Shown in pieces: positions 16,187 to 43,224 of a DNA stretch of 64,000 nucleotides (position 1 is the first letter of the stretch; every line of letters starts with the position of its first letter). Location of the stretch: NCBI RefSeq assembly GCF_900101015.1, contig NZ_FNFZ01000010.1, positions 5,588-69,587 of the forward strand. Direction: 5' to 3'. The notes beneath the pieces are model-generated. The model searched no databases, was not told where the DNA came from, and saw nothing but the letters and a program-made list of their open reading frames with translations. Both the position numbers and the translations under genes were made by a program. Source of the stretch: Sarcina sp. DSM 11001 (lineage in GTDB: Bacteria > Bacillota > Clostridia > Lachnospirales > Lachnospiraceae).

Positions 16187-16352
16187 GTTAAAACACACGC
16201 CCTGTCGAGGGCGTGTAACTGCAGCTTGCGAAAATCACATTCCAAATCGTTCCAAATCGCTTCGCGATTGGATTTTCGCCGTAAAACTGAGGCTTTTCGC
16301 GAAAAACCCGCGAAAAACGCCTCGAATTTCGAGGGGGTCTGTACGGTAACAC
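16187..16352 (+). repeat. Dispersed three-hairpin repeat, copy 1 (short form)
   Basis: This element matches 33461-33621, 33622-33800 and 41481-41655 in the same orientation. It contains stem 1 (ACACGCCCT-GTCG-AGGGCGTGT), stem 2 around GCGAAAAT...ATTTTCGC, and stem 3 around TTTTCGCG...CGCGAAAA followed by CTCGAATTTCGAG. It ends with GTCTGTACGGTAAC. Copies 1 and 2 lack a roughly 20-bp hairpin insert found in copies 3 and 4. It lies between the tRNA terminator and the gap promoter. Confidence 0.92.
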
Positions 16353-16390
16353 AACACTACATATTTAACAATTATTTCCCAGAATACTAT

Positions 16391-33108: not shown

Positions 33109-33460
33109 TGCGTTACCTCCCTCTGGATAAAATATGTCTGCCTGCAATCAATGAAAACTTGCAGCCGAAGAAGCAACGTTCCGCGCCGCTGCAGGTTATC
33201 TGCTGCCCGGCCGCGTTTTTTAAGGACGCAGCCGGACAGGATCCTGTCCATAAATCAGGCTTATGAACAATCTTCTTAATAACCATACATACTGTGTCCG
33301 TACTCAGAAAGTACTGTTTGATAACACATCTTCATGTAACACATTTTCCCATGTCGCGACGGCAATCAGCCTGATTAATTGTCTCGCAACTTACCTAAAT
33401 TCTACAATGAAATTAGAAAAATGTCAATTTTTATACAAAAGTGAGGCTCTGTTAATCATT
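33109..33460. other. Intergenic region upstream of the kinase-like gene
   Basis: The first 150 bases are GC-rich and the rest is AT-rich, as expected for a promoter region of the minus-strand gene. No well-spaced promoter pair, gene or RNA structure was identified. Confidence 0.4.
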
Positions 33461-33621
33461 TAACGTGCTACAGTACACGCCCTATCGAGGGCGTGTACTG
33501 TAGCTTGCGAAAATCCCATTCCAAATCGCTTCGCGATGGGATTTTCGCCGTAAAACTCGGGTTTTTCGCGAAAAAGCCGCGAAAAACACCTCGAGTTTCG
33601 AGGGAGTCTGTACTGTAACTT
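33461..33621 (+). repeat. Dispersed three-hairpin repeat, copy 2 (short form)
   Basis: Stem 1 is a perfect 16-base inverted repeat with loop ATCG, running from CTACAGTACACGCCCT to AGGGCGTGTACTGTAG. Stem 2 pairs GCGAAAATCCCAT with ATGGGATTTTCGC. Stem 3 pairs TTTTTCGCG with CGCGAAAAA and is followed by CTCGAGTTTCGAG. It is directly followed, head to tail, by copy 3. Confidence 0.95.
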
Positions 33622-33800
33622 TAACGTAACTACACACGCCCTATTGAGGGCGTGTATAGTAACGTGCGAAAATCCCATTCCAACAATGCGAAGCTTTGTT
33701 ATCGCCGCGCGATGGGGATTTTCGTCATAAAACTCGGGTTTTTCGCGAAAAGCGCGCGAAAAACTCCTCGAATTTCGTGCCGGTCTGAAAAGTAACCATT
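33622..33800 (+). repeat. Dispersed three-hairpin repeat, copy 3 (long form)
   Basis: This copy has the same three stems as copy 2. The outer arm of stem 1 is changed on both sides (ACTACACACGCCCT with AGGGCGTGTATAGT), so most pairing is kept. Inside stem 2 it carries an extra segment, AATGCGAAGCTTTGTTATCG, which forms its own small hairpin and is shared with copy 4. The end is more degenerate than in other copies. Confidence 0.93.
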
Positions 33801-33934
33801 TAACTGGTAACAGACCTGCCTGTAGGGAGGCAGGGGAGGGAGACAGGGGACGGTCTGTACGGTGGCATTAACTGTACAGTCTGAAACGGATTTCAGTCTG
33901 AGAGCAGGGAAGAAAACGCAGCTGTACCGGAGAA
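33801..33934. other. Structured trailer between repeat copy 3 and the YprB-like gene
   Basis: ACAGACC (33810-33816) can pair with GGTCTGT (33852-33858), enclosing a hairpin with arms TGCCT and AGGCA. CTGTAC/GTACAG and CTGAAA/TTTCAG form two further short stems downstream. No T tract follows on the minus strand, so this is not an obvious terminator. Confidence 0.4.
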
Positions 33935-39496: not shown

Positions 39497-41445
39497 ACAG
39501 TAAGATCAAGTCCAGACTGTCGCTGCTGAGGGAAAAAATGTCCCGCCTGGGGATCGATTATTTCCTGATCCCGACAGCGGACTTTCACAACTCGGAATAT
39601 GTGGCTCCCTATTTTCAGACAAGAGCATATTTCTGCGGATTTACCGGTTCCAACGGAACCCTGGTCGTCGGCATGGAGGAAGCCGGGCTCTGGACAGACG
39701 GCCGGTATTTTATCCAGGCGGAAAAAGAACTCCGGGGTACCGGTGTGGATCTGTACAGAGAGGGAGAAGAGGGCGTCCCCACAGCAGCTCAATGGCTCGC
39801 GGACCGGTTTGGCAGGGCTGCGAAAGCACAGGACAATGGGGAGAAATCCCGGGCTCTCGCTCTGGGCTTTGACGGGCGCTGTGTCAATGTTGCGCAGAAG
39901 AGGCAGTTTCAGAAAAAGCTCTCTGCGTTCGGAGTGCGGTTTGTCACAGACACGGACCCCGCGGAGGGGATCTGGACAGACAGGCCTGCGAGACCGGCAG
40001 CTCCCGCATTTGTCCTCGAGGAGAAATACGCCGGGGAGAGTGCTCCTTCCAAGCTGGAACGTCTTCGCGGGAAGATGCGCGGGGCGGGAGCCGGGATCTA
40101 TGTAGAGAACAGGCTCGAAAACCTGATGTGGCTGTTCAATCTCCGCGGCAGGGATGTGGAGTGTACACCGGTTTCGCTCTGCTTTGGCGTCATCACGATG
40201 AAGGATCAGGTCCTCTTTATTCAGGAGAGTGCCGTGACCGGCCAGGTGCAGGCCTATGCGGACCGGATCGGCCTGGAGCTCCACCCCTATGATGATGTGT
40301 TCAATTATCTGGAGCAGCCCGGGCTTTACAGTCAGGAACAGGGAGCGGTCTGCCGGGTCCTTTTTAATCCTGCATCGCTCAGCGTCAGGCTCCGGGAAGC
40401 TGTGCTAAAGGGCCGTCAGGCTCTGATTGACAGCACGGAGATCACCGGGATGTCTCAGACTGCAGGCAGGGGGAATAGACCGGGATTCCCCGGGCGCCAT
40501 TTTGATGTGGAGAAAAGAAGCCCTGTCGAGGACTTTAAGGCAGTCAAGAACGCAGCCGAGCTGAAAAACATCCGGGACTGTTACCGGGAGGACTCCGCAG
40601 CAGTCTGCCGGTTCCTTTTCTGGCTGCACAAAAATAAGGAAGACGGGAAGATCGGCAGCCTGACCGAGATGGACGCGGCGGCAAAAATGGATTCCCTTCG
40701 CGCGCAGATCAGCGATTATGTCGACCTGTCCTTCGGTACGATCTCAGCTTACGGGCCCAATGCCGCAATGATGCATTATACGGCAAAAGAAGGGGAATGC
40801 GCACAGCTGCAGCCGGAGGGGATGCTCCTTGTGGACTGCGGAGGTCAATACCTGCGCGGGACTACGGATGTGACGCGCACCATGGCCCTGGGACCTGTCA
40901 CGCAGGATATGCGGAAACACTATACACTGACTGCTGTCGGAAACCTTCAGCTTCTGGACGCGGTCTTCCTCTACGGCTGTACCGGCCGGAATGTGGACAT
41001 CCTGGCAAGGCAGCCGCTCTGGCGCACCTTCGTGGATTATAAATGCGGGACAGGGCACGGGATCGGATATCTTCTGAGTGTCCATGAGGGTCCCCAGAAC
41101 ATTCGCTGGCGTTTTATCGGAGGCATGGAGGAGGCTGTACTGGAACCCGGTATGATCGTCTCCGACGAACCCGGTGTCTACATTGAGGGGCAGTACGGGA
41201 TCCGGATCGAAACGATCCTCGAAGTCGTCGAAGCGGCGAAAAACGGCGACGGGAGATTCCTGCGCTTTGAGCCCCTGACCCTGGTGCCGCTCGACCCGGC
41301 GCTCATTGATCCCGCATATCTGACCCCTCAGACCACAGAGGTCCTCAACCGGTATCACGCGAGGGTCTATGAAGAGATCGCGCCTCTGCTGACGCAGGAG
41401 GAGAGTGAGTGGCTGTACACCCAGACCAGACCGGTCACATGCTGA
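39490..41445 (+). CDS. pepP: Aminopeptidase P-family (M24) Xaa-Pro peptidase
   Basis: From the ATG at 39490 the protein is 651 residues, the long three-domain form. It has two creatinase-like N-terminal domains (about 1-150 and 180-330). The M24 pita-bread domain carries the metal ligands: Asp in LVDCGGQYLRGTTDVTRT, His in GTGHGIGY, and Glu in SDEPGVYIEGQYGIRIE. A C-terminal M24 tail follows. It removes N-terminal residues ahead of proline. No signal peptide is seen. The GAGGAG of the duplicated start region lies six bases upstream. Confidence 0.92.
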   Translation: MENSKIKSRLSLLREKMSRLGIDYFLIPTADFHNSEYVAPYFQTRAYFCGFTGSNGTLVVGMEEAGLWTDGRYFIQAEKELRGTGVDLYREGEEGVPTAAQWLADRFGRAAKAQDNGEKSRALALGFDGRCVNVAQKRQFQKKLSAFGVRFVTDTDPAEGIWTDRPARPAAPAFVLEEKYAGESAPSKLERLRGKMRGAGAGIYVENRLENLMWLFNLRGRDVECTPVSLCFGVITMKDQVLFIQESAVTGQVQAYADRIGLELHPYDDVFNYLEQPGLYSQEQGAVCRVLFNPASLSVRLREAVLKGRQALIDSTEITGMSQTAGRGNRPGFPGRHFDVEKRSPVEDFKAVKNAAELKNIRDCYREDSAAVCRFLFWLHKNKEDGKIGSLTEMDAAAKMDSLRAQISDYVDLSFGTISAYGPNAAMMHYTAKEGECAQLQPEGMLLVDCGGQYLRGTTDVTRTMALGPVTQDMRKHYTLTAVGNLQLLDAVFLYGCTGRNVDILARQPLWRTFVDYKCGTGHGIGYLLSVHEGPQNIRWRFIGGMEEAVLEPGMIVSDEPGVYIEGQYGIRIETILEVVEAAKNGDGRFLRFEPLTLVPLDPALIDPAYLTPQTTEVLNRYHARVYEEIAPLLTQEESEWLYTQTRPVTC

Positions 41446-41480
41446 CCGGCGGGTGAACCGAAACATATTGGCTGACATAT

Positions 41481-41655
41481 TAGCTGCTGCACACGCCCTG
41501 TCGAGGGCGTGCACTGCAGCTTGAGAAAATCCCATTCCACCAATGCGAAGCTTTGTTATCGCCTCGCGATGGGATTTTCGCCGTAAAACCCGGGTTTTCC
41601 GCGAAAAGCTGCGAAAACCGCCTCGAATTTCGAGGGGATCTGTACGGTAACACAT
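41481..41655 (+). repeat. Dispersed three-hairpin repeat, copy 4 (long form)
   Basis: This copy matches copy 3 in carrying the AATGCGAAGCTTTGTTATCG insert within stem 2. Stem 1 is GCACACGCCCT with AGGGCGTGCAC, stem 2 AAAATCCCAT with ATGGGATTTT, and stem 3 is weakened (TTTTCCGCG). It ends CGAGGGGATCTGTACGGTAACAC, almost as in copy 1. It lies between pepP and the 6S-like RNA promoter. Confidence 0.93.
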
Positions 41656-41689
41656 ATTGTTCCATATCTATACAATATCTATACAACAG

Positions 41690-41719
41690 TTGTCATCCGG
41701 CAGGTAAGTGTGGTATAAT
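41690..41719 (+). promoter_or_regulatory. Strong promoter of the 6S-like RNA
   Basis: TTGTCA (41690-41695) is 18 bases from a perfect TATAAT (41714-41719), which is preceded by TGG, an extended -10 element. The expected start, near 41726, coincides with the first base of the closing stem of the RNA. Confidence 0.75.
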
Positions 41720-41725
41720 AATCTC

Positions 41726-41915
41726 ACCTGAGATGCCAGTCATCTGCCATTTTGAACCTACAATTACTTTAAACGGGACTCTCATATTGCTGTGTCGATG
41801 TCAGGCCTTCCGTGCTCTTGCACCGGCAGAGGAAGATTGAAGCACATGCTGCGGACACCCACCTGGCATGCGTGCTAGGAGTCAAAATGCAGGTTCGGCG
41901 TTTCAGGTTTTTTTT
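41726..41915 (+). ncRNA. ssrS: Structured small RNA, 6S RNA-like
   Basis: The 5' end (41726-41737) pairs over 12 positions with the 3' end (41897-41908), which is followed by eight T residues. Inside it a second long helix pairs about 41744-41757 with 41781-side bases 41881-41892, with one or two bulges. Further inside, 41798-41805 pairs with 41862-41869. The remaining central region is largely unpaired, and a short GTGC-TCTT-GCAC hairpin lies near 41812-41823. A rod of about 190 nt with an open centre, a strong promoter and an intrinsic end is the 6S RNA plan. No protein frame fits. The family name is inference. Confidence 0.6.
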
Positions 41916-42001
41916 GTGCCCTGAAGGTACTGAATGGACTGAAAGCGCTGATTATAAAGCACTGATTGTAAAAGCACGGATTGTAGAAATACGGAATATA
42001 T

Positions 42002-42106
42002 CTGAAAGTGTTGAATGGATCTGAAAGTGTTGAATGGATCGGAAAGTGTTGAATGGATCTGAAAGTACTGAATATATCTGAAAGCACTGAATGGATCTGA
42101 AAGGAT
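42002..42106. repeat. 19-bp tandem repeat upstream of pheS
   Basis: Units of CTGAAAGTGTTGAATGGAT start at 42002, 42021, 42040, 42059 and 42078, exactly 19 bp apart, followed by a shortened unit. Degenerate versions extend back to about 41930. A perfect TATAAT at 42121-42126 follows and may be the pheS -10 box, with no good -35. A small hairpin AGGCC/GGCCT lies at 42140-42157. Confidence 0.93.
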
Positions 42107-42201
42107 CCTGAGAGGATCTGTATAATATTCATGCATATGAGGCCTCCCCGAAGGCCTTGAATGATAGAAGCATATTATTTCAGCAAGAAGGATTTAGGAA
42201 A

Positions 42202-43224
42202 ATGTTTAAGGAAGAACTGGAGAAGATCAGAAAAGAGGCGCAGCAGCGTCTCGAGCAGAGTGATTCGCTGGACAAGATCAATGAGATCCGCGTCGGCGTC
42301 CTCGGAAAGAAAGGAAGCCTCAAGGACATCCTCAAGGGGATGAAGAATGTGCCTGCGGAGGAACGTCCGAAGGTCGGTCAGATGGTCAATGATGTCCGCG
42401 TGGAGATCGAAGAAGCCATCGCGAAGGCTCAGAAGACCATCGAGCGCAAGGTGCAGGAGCAGCGGCTCGCGGCGGAGACCATTGATGTCACCCTGCCCGC
42501 CAAACGCATGGCGAGAGGCCACAGCCACCCCAATGTGATCGCCCTCAAGGAGATGGAACGCATTTTTGTCGGTATGGGCTACGAGGTCATCGAAGGCCCT
42601 GAGGTTGAGCGTGATTATTACAATTTCGAGGCACTGAATATTCCTGCGGACCATCCCGCAAAGGACGAACAGGATACCTTCTATATCAACGGGGATATCC
42701 TTCTGCGCACACAGACCTCCTCCACACAGATCCACGCGATGGAGAGCGGCCGGATCCCGATCCGCATGATCGCGCCCGGAAGAGTCTACCGCTCCGACGC
42801 TGTCGATGCTACCCATTCCCCGACCTTCCACCAGGTAGAGGGGCTTGTAGTCGACAAGGGCATCACTTTCGCGGACCTGAAGGGAACACTGGACGAATTT
42901 GCCAAAAAGCTGTTTGGCGAAGAGACCAGGACCCGCTTCCGTCCCCACCATTTCCCTTTCACCGAGCCCAGCGCGGAAATGGATGTCAGCTGCTTCAAGT
43001 GCGGCGGCAAAGGCTGCAGTTTCTGCAAGGGTGAAGGCTGGATCGAGATCCTCGGCTGCGGCATGGTGCACCCGCACGTGCTGGAGATGAGCGGCATCGA
43101 TCCCGACGTATACAGCGGTTTCGCCTTCGGCGTAGGTCTGGAGAGGATCGCCCTTCTCAACTATGAGATCGACGACATGAGGCTGCTGTATGAAAACGAC
43201 ATCCGGTTCCTGAATCAGTTCTGA
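42202..43224 (+). CDS. pheS: Phenylalanine-tRNA ligase, alpha subunit
   Basis: From the ATG at 42202 the protein is 340 residues, the usual length. An N-terminal coiled-coil (1-85) binds tRNA. The class II catalytic core contains [21 protein letters not shown], the [12 protein letters not shown] segment, and motif 2/3 parts [18 protein letters not shown] and [14 protein letters not shown]. It forms an alpha2-beta2 enzyme with PheT, encoded 253 bases downstream. AGGA lies close to the ATG. No T-box leader was recognised. Confidence 0.97.

Follow-up and report, generated by a model that had tools for sequence, protein, structure and literature searches.

A dispersed, hairpin-bearing MITE family in Sarcina sp. 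DSM 11001 and some of its relatives, probably mobilized by an IS66-family transposase of the ISBst12 type

INTRODUCTION

Among described mobile elements, those closest to the repeats reported here are insertion sequences of the ISBst12 group of the IS66 family, which have GTAACTGNTCAG-type ends, generate an 8-bp target duplication, and encode an IS66 transposase; one member, ISDge4, which has been seen to transpose, carries GTGACTACTCAGCA/GTAACTGCTCAGCA at its ends and a direct repeat of 8 bp (available text of PMC12898284). The repeats of this study have ends of that type and the same duplication length, and the mover that we propose is likewise an IS66 transposase, but they differ in being MITEs without a transposase gene.

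Similarly, bacterial MITEs such as QMITE1, QMITE2, and Chunjie are short and gene-less, with inverted ends, target duplications, and size variants (39 to 400 bp for QMITE1), as described in the available text of a MITE review that, to that extent, mentions neither IS66 nor hairpins (PMC10969869). Unlike bacterial MITEs generally, the present elements contain separate hairpins, have internal arms that covary between subfamilies, and possess a palindromic left end. MITEPye1 of Paracoccus yeei is comparable in being a MITE with direct repeats and predicted RNA-level stem-loops, but its authors tied it to the IS1182 family and it has only one to three chromosomal copies (available text of PMC11578231). 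Short repeated DNA with stem loops is also represented by REPINs and by the IS605-linked stem loops of Borrelia (PMC3116915, PMC2674063, and PMC2775950). Within the available open-access literature (i.e., outside ISfinder and subscription papers), we found no MITE linked to IS66 or ISBst12, and none in these bacteria; more specifically, neither this family nor an IS66/ISBst12-linked MITE appears in the available text of PMC9769881, PMC3189936, PMC12888890, PMC8024623, or PMC2229807.

RESULTS

Copies in the window and nested insertion

The window, i.e., the whole stretch of 64,000 nucleotides analyzed, belongs to a 4.15-Mb draft genome in 76 contigs (98.57% complete; labeled G000). We ran a covariance model built from 31 aligned family members over the entire window and obtained four strong matches, all on the plus strand (copies 1 to 4 in Table 1), together with four much weaker minus-strand matches (33507-33663, 33423-33504, 16239-16355, and 41409-41520) that overlap the copies and are taken for palindrome echoes. 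An earlier note on this DNA had described four near-identical elements in one orientation, two of them head to tail. The four copies and their shared orientation were recovered, with boundaries a few bases away from those first given, whereas "near-identical" proved too strong, as copies 1, 4, and 3 are 85%, 79%, and 76% identical to copy 2, respectively. The list was also incomplete, as it had overlooked a 60-bp relative immediately beyond copy 3. Reading the flanks of copy 1 by eye, we recognized no target duplication.

Table 1. Coordinates of the MITE copies, the related element, and the target duplications in the window
Feature	Position	Strand	Remarks
Copy 1 of MITE, 164 bp	16187..16350	+	Left terminal repeat degraded; downstream of tRNA gene
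Copy 3, left target duplication (8 bp), CATTTAAC	33457..33464		Copy 2 now lies between it and copy 3
Copy 2, left target duplication (8 bp), TTTAACGT	33459..33466		
Copy 2 of MITE, 153 bp	33467..33619	+	Has hairpin 1 (terminal), the bulged hairpin 2, hairpin 3, and the right terminal repeat
Copy 2, right target duplication (8 bp), TTTAACGT	33620..33627		Final two bases are the first two of copy 3
Copy 3 of MITE, 171 bp	33626..33796	+	Left end invaded by copy 2
Copy 3, right target duplication (8 bp), CATTTAAC	33797..33804		
Third nested element, 60 bp	33807..33866		Related ends GTAACAGACC ... GGTCTGTACGGTGGC; target duplication TTTAACTG/ATTAACTG, 7/8
Copy 4 of MITE, 169 bp	41483..41651	+	Target duplication ACATATTA/ACATATTG, 7/8

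Copies 2 and 3 do adjoin, as the earlier note had stated, but by nested insertion rather than tandem duplication. In silico removal of copy 2 along with one TTTAACGT restored copy 3 at its full 171 bp, flanked by a perfect 8-bp duplication (CATTTAAC), and subsequent removal of copy 3 left the 60-bp relative with its flanks TTTAACTG/ATTAACTG. The most fitting reading of the head-to-tail arrangement is therefore a series of three insertions at a single spot.

Downstream of copy 4 lies a pheS-like gene (42157-43224), and a promoter-like TTGTCA-N18-TATAAT sequence was noted by eye after this copy, within positions 41483-42157.

Copy number and distribution

With copy 2 as a 153-base query, a DNA search of the same genome returned 41 matches at E ≤3e-20, the four of the window included; weaker matches were mostly palindromes matching themselves, plus fragments. 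The covariance model matched all 49 scored candidates in this genome (of 925 candidates), at least 40 of them among the matches listed, at E ≤1e-24, and the matches beyond those 40 may include palindrome echoes. In a second genome of the genus (G008), 49 model matches were obtained, 39 among the matches listed. Across the genus, the model found the family in 11 of 62 genomes (the window's own included) and a 14-base end pattern occurred in 8 of 62, with the reversed control pattern present in none of the 62. A separate DNA search matched 8 of 61 genomes, all of the genus. A draw from the whole order yielded, under strict filters, a single genome with a model match out of 246, namely, that of the window. 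A core pattern was present in 14 stretches of a genome collection, all from Lachnospiraceae or Eubacteriales MAGs and one from sheep duodenum; two bear RUG names, which we take to denote rumen genomes. The refuting outcome named in the earlier note, a covariance search with these copies only and no compensatory changes, did not arise within the genomes searched: many further copies exist, and compensatory changes are abundant. The copies of the window belong to a dispersed, high-copy MITE family found in some members of the genus, and a chance origin of the family likeness is excluded. A phage or plasmid origin was rejected, as a query offset by 3 bases from the element had no match in either collection.

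Ends, target duplications, and lengths

The 153-bp copies carry an 11-bp terminal inverted repeat, GYTACAGTACA...TGTACTGTAAC, at both ends, and many copies lie between 8-bp direct repeats whose sequence changes with the site (e.g., AATTTGTC, CTGTATTT, CATAGCTG, ACGGCTGC, and TCGGATTC). At the loci of the window's own genome, 38 end pairs had an 8-bp duplication with at most one mismatch, while shifted flanks gave an expectation of 2.8. Two of these pairs repeat places already counted, as the loci L002 and L023 overlap, and a few are poor-ended and chance-like. When the relatives' loci were added, there were 70 distinct pairs with an 8-bp duplication versus 9.4 expected, low-scoring and poor-ended chance pairs included. 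The elements fall into length classes of 38 to 40, 52 to 60, and 131 to 192 bp (core), plus a 207-bp one of another family. The 38- to 40-bp elements (L038, L041, and L056) are essentially the left-end hairpin alone, each with an exact 8-bp duplication. In the 153-bp copy, one of the six reading frames is free of stops (50 codons) and two others stay open up to the last codon; these predicted frames are too short for a transposase, and no plausible gene is apparent. Being short, gene-less, and of high copy number, with inverted ends and a constant 8-bp duplication, the elements are MITEs, in line with the short nonautonomous mobile element that the earlier note had offered as one of two readings and which the nested insertion also supports.

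One of the minimal elements (40 bp; L056:628-667, i.e., G000:C50:26127-26166) lies, in frame together with its 8-bp duplication (48 bp), inside a gene for an FAD-dependent protein. In the only empty-site alignment attempted, which covered eight orthologues of this gene, the insertion site coincided with a hypervariable linker and no separate-strain empty site was found.

Two pairs of facing terminal repeats ~4.3 kb apart (G000:C51 and G010:C75) were considered as large autonomous transposons and rejected: by eye, the ORFs between them did not look transposase-like, and of the four ends, at least three are parts of separate small elements.

Complete IS66-type elements in the genus

We scanned 61 loci of the genus with PF03050 (DDE_Tnp_IS66) or PF01609 (DDE_Tnp_1) transposases (part of all matches), plus nine larger regions, for inverted ends with 8-bp duplications. 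Complete IS66-type elements with exact 8-bp duplications were present at L115, L117, L118, L120, L121, L161, L165, L166, and L167 (twice at the last). All of them have PF03050 matches, and their ends are of the GTTAC/GTAAC kind, GTTAC(A/T)(G/A)TTCA or GTAACTGTTCAG; those of L115 and L117 are nearly of the ISBst12 type. At most other transposase loci scanned, part of them lying at contig ends, no such element was detected, looser pairs with inexact flanks being disregarded. In a Pfam check of four transposases (L115, L118, L120, and L161), all scored above the cut-off for PF03050, the match of L161 to IS66 families being weak, and only L115 reached the NF033517 cut-off. At L167:2904-8397 (G069), two IS66-type elements stand head to tail; CAGAATTG flanks each of them, and another PF03050 match lies just before them.

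The L161 element, located in G008, is 2628 bp long, with the ends GTTACAGTTCAGGCCCTACTGAAA and GTTACAGTTCAGACCCATCTGAAA and an 8-bp duplication; whereas ISBst12-group elements have a single ORF (available text of PMC12898284), it has an extra small upstream ORF of 124 aa. Its right end, GTTACAGTTCAGACCCATCTGAAA, agrees with a MITE end from the same genome (L064) at 24 of 26 bases, relative to a background best of 18 among 172 GTTAC starts. When the MITE model was run over the nine partner-element loci, it found only a MITE 13 bp outside the left end of the L161 element and one 12.3-bit match (E 0.095) at the right end of that element. Since the model is nearly silent in these loci, the MITE is not, by this comparison, a simple internal deletion of the partner IS66 elements.

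Relatives of the G008 transposase occurred in 4 of the 11 genomes with the MITE and in 7 of the 51 without it, a loose co-occurrence that is only suggestive. No such relative was detected at E 1e-6 in the window's own genome, as represented by the draft of 76 contigs and 98.57% completeness, and PF03050 was absent from three other MITE-bearing genomes (G010, G018, and G076). The sole PF03050 gene of the window's genome (C37) was rejected as a partner: a GTAAGCG sequence was seen by eye on one side, but our scans found no matching inverted ends. The genome may have lost its IS66 transposase, or the assembly may lack it.

Covariation and conserved shape of the hairpins

Orientation was assigned to 52 elements of 130 to 200 bp and failed for five; we selected 34 representatives and dropped L052, L083, and L182 before alignment, which left 31 aligned members. 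Four measures of pairing exceeded the shuffled expectation in this set, none of 500 shuffles reaching the observed value in any of them: paired cells (88.0% versus 81.4% in shuffles), double-changed cells (102 versus 39.0), pairs with a double change (14 versus 9.1), and covariation score (0.172 versus 0.066). A fifth, the number of further pair types, was not above shuffles (29 versus 29.7; 379 of 500). All six slid controls were lower, with at most 54.8% paired, 38 double-changed cells, 9 such pairs, and a score of 0.075. More specifically, columns 68-71 pair with columns 119-122, each showing two or three pair types, and a single cell among them all is unpaired. The arms of stem 2 vary among the listed members with matching partners (GCGAAAATCCC, GCGCGCGGCG, GCGTTCGCCC, GCGTTTGGCG, and GCGTTCGACG), and near relatives differ by compensated changes of single pairs in the outer helix (L024 versus L028, L030 versus L028, and L072 versus L001).

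As for the window copies themselves, stem 1 was said in the earlier note to keep its pairing largely between copies 2 and 3; this holds for copy 3, where two pairs are broken in the model alignment. The extra stem 2 element ascribed to copies 3 and 4 is borne out as a 17-nt insert present in both, at the place of which copy 1 has a different, 10-nt insert in the model alignment. At position 9 of the left end, the base of 27 of 30 members can pair within its own palindrome, as against 15 of 30 for pairing with the right terminal repeat; from this preference, the left hairpin seems to be kept for itself.

When the hairpin 2 region was folded individually, 25 of the 31 members had a one-sided bulge of 7 to 8 nt (no base facing it in 22, one base in 3) while the arms change; the remaining six did not show the bulge. 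The RNA fold of the first 138 nt of copy 2 had a z-score of -11.2, with none of 200 shuffles as stable, and the six members folded ranged from -6.3 to -11.2. At the Rfam gathering score, only tRNA was found in the window; matches in positions 33400-33900 were all below threshold (best E 0.027), as were those in five loci that carry other members (best E 0.0023, at a position not within the element). Hence, the elements match no named RNA family at the Rfam cut-offs, and the other refuting outcome of the earlier note, membership in an already named repeat family, did not arise within Rfam.

The covariation and the retained bulge suggest that a folded strand is under selection. Compensatory changes could arise without selection, through template-switch repair of palindromes, but such repair would tend to erase the one-sided bulge of hairpin 2.

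DISCUSSION

Judged from its ends, its duplication length, and the complete elements of the genus, the mover is probably an IS66-family element of the ISBst12 type, and we put the probability that the MITE is moved in trans by an ISBst12-type IS66 transposase at roughly 0.84. The covariation and the conserved one-sided bulge would also suit the other reading of the earlier note, a multi-copy RNA, here a regulatory or noncoding one that spread by duplication, with mobility secondary or absent, and the very stable folds of the six members would fit as well. We consider this improbable in light of the inverted ends and 8-bp duplications at many sites, the nested insertion, the 38- to 60-bp relatives that share the ends and are too short for internal hairpins, and the lack of an Rfam family at cut-off. 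Bulged hairpins are a feature of REP and IS200/IS605 hairpins, and hairpin 2, an imperfect palindrome with a bulge on one side, would be at home in a REP/REPIN-like element moved by an HUH (RAYT/IS200) transposase. HUH-type mobilization proceeds by single-strand transposition, which is not known to leave a target duplication, whereas 8-bp duplications are frequent in this family, its ends are of the IS66 type, and the genus has complete IS66-type elements with similar ends and an equal duplication length, which makes this the remotest of the explanations weighed here.

An additional candidate is some other transposase that generates 8-bp duplications (such as ISL3 or IS1595) and shares its end sequence with IS66 elements by chance. 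The window's own genome, having no matching IS66 gene, would be in keeping with such a mover. Against it, IS256 (PF00872) was rejected as a partner, being found in none of eight MITE-bearing genomes searched, and among 30 PF01609 loci (of 43 matches) L156 alone had GTTAC-type ends together with an exact 8-bp flank, its transposase gene lying inside a MITE; a few looser pairs, whose flanks were inexact, were disregarded in that scan. We regard this candidate as very unlikely.

If mobilization by the ISBst12-type transposase is accepted, that enzyme would bind the GTTACAGTNCA ends in trans and move the element. The left end would act as a hairpin that bears the terminal repeat twice, so that the 38- to 40-bp elements, which are essentially this hairpin, could be mobile too, although they would be very small for IS66-type mobility. 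Within this MITE/IS66 reading, it is fairly likely that the hairpins are under selection. Hairpins 2 and 3 would then be maintained through selection on the folded strand, which may be read-through RNA from neighboring genes or single-stranded DNA during transposition, with the bulged hairpin 2 as the likeliest part to be recognized by a protein. A more ambitious proposal, that of a structured-nucleic-acid transposon, joins two statements: (i) hairpins 2 and 3, and chiefly the strand-specific bulge of 7 to 8 nt (mostly ATTCCAA-like), would be a recognized RNA or single-stranded DNA motif selected across subfamilies with differing arms; and (ii) the left palindrome would be an independent transposable unit of 38 to 40 bp, near the minimum for two transposase-binding ends. 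We advance this joint claim tentatively and think it rather doubtful as a whole. If the hairpins are indeed selected, the family would exemplify a selfish element whose folded motif is conserved despite free turnover of its arms, and a role in transposition, element protection, or host regulation would be directly testable.

Additional observations

A second MITE family of ~158 to 208 nt, with the same terminal repeat and a different interior, occurs in G014 and G010 (L084:977-1184, L091:2747-2904, and L082:5679-5885). At L156:968-3132 (G009:C506), a PF01609-type transposase gene divided between two frames lies inside a MITE, with GTTCACACC repeated at the junctions.

Regarding orientation, a bias with respect to the replication strand was considered and rejected, as the window's own genome gave 18 versus 21 and adjacent pairs overall gave 24 versus 16 (P = 0.13; 150 listed matches). 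In G008, pairs of MITEs on one contig were mostly on one strand (16 versus 2 among the listed matches). The ORFs neighboring 35 elements of the window's own genome (loci among L001-L063), assigned with a crude ORF caller and counted by hand, were divergent in 16 cases and convergent in 4.
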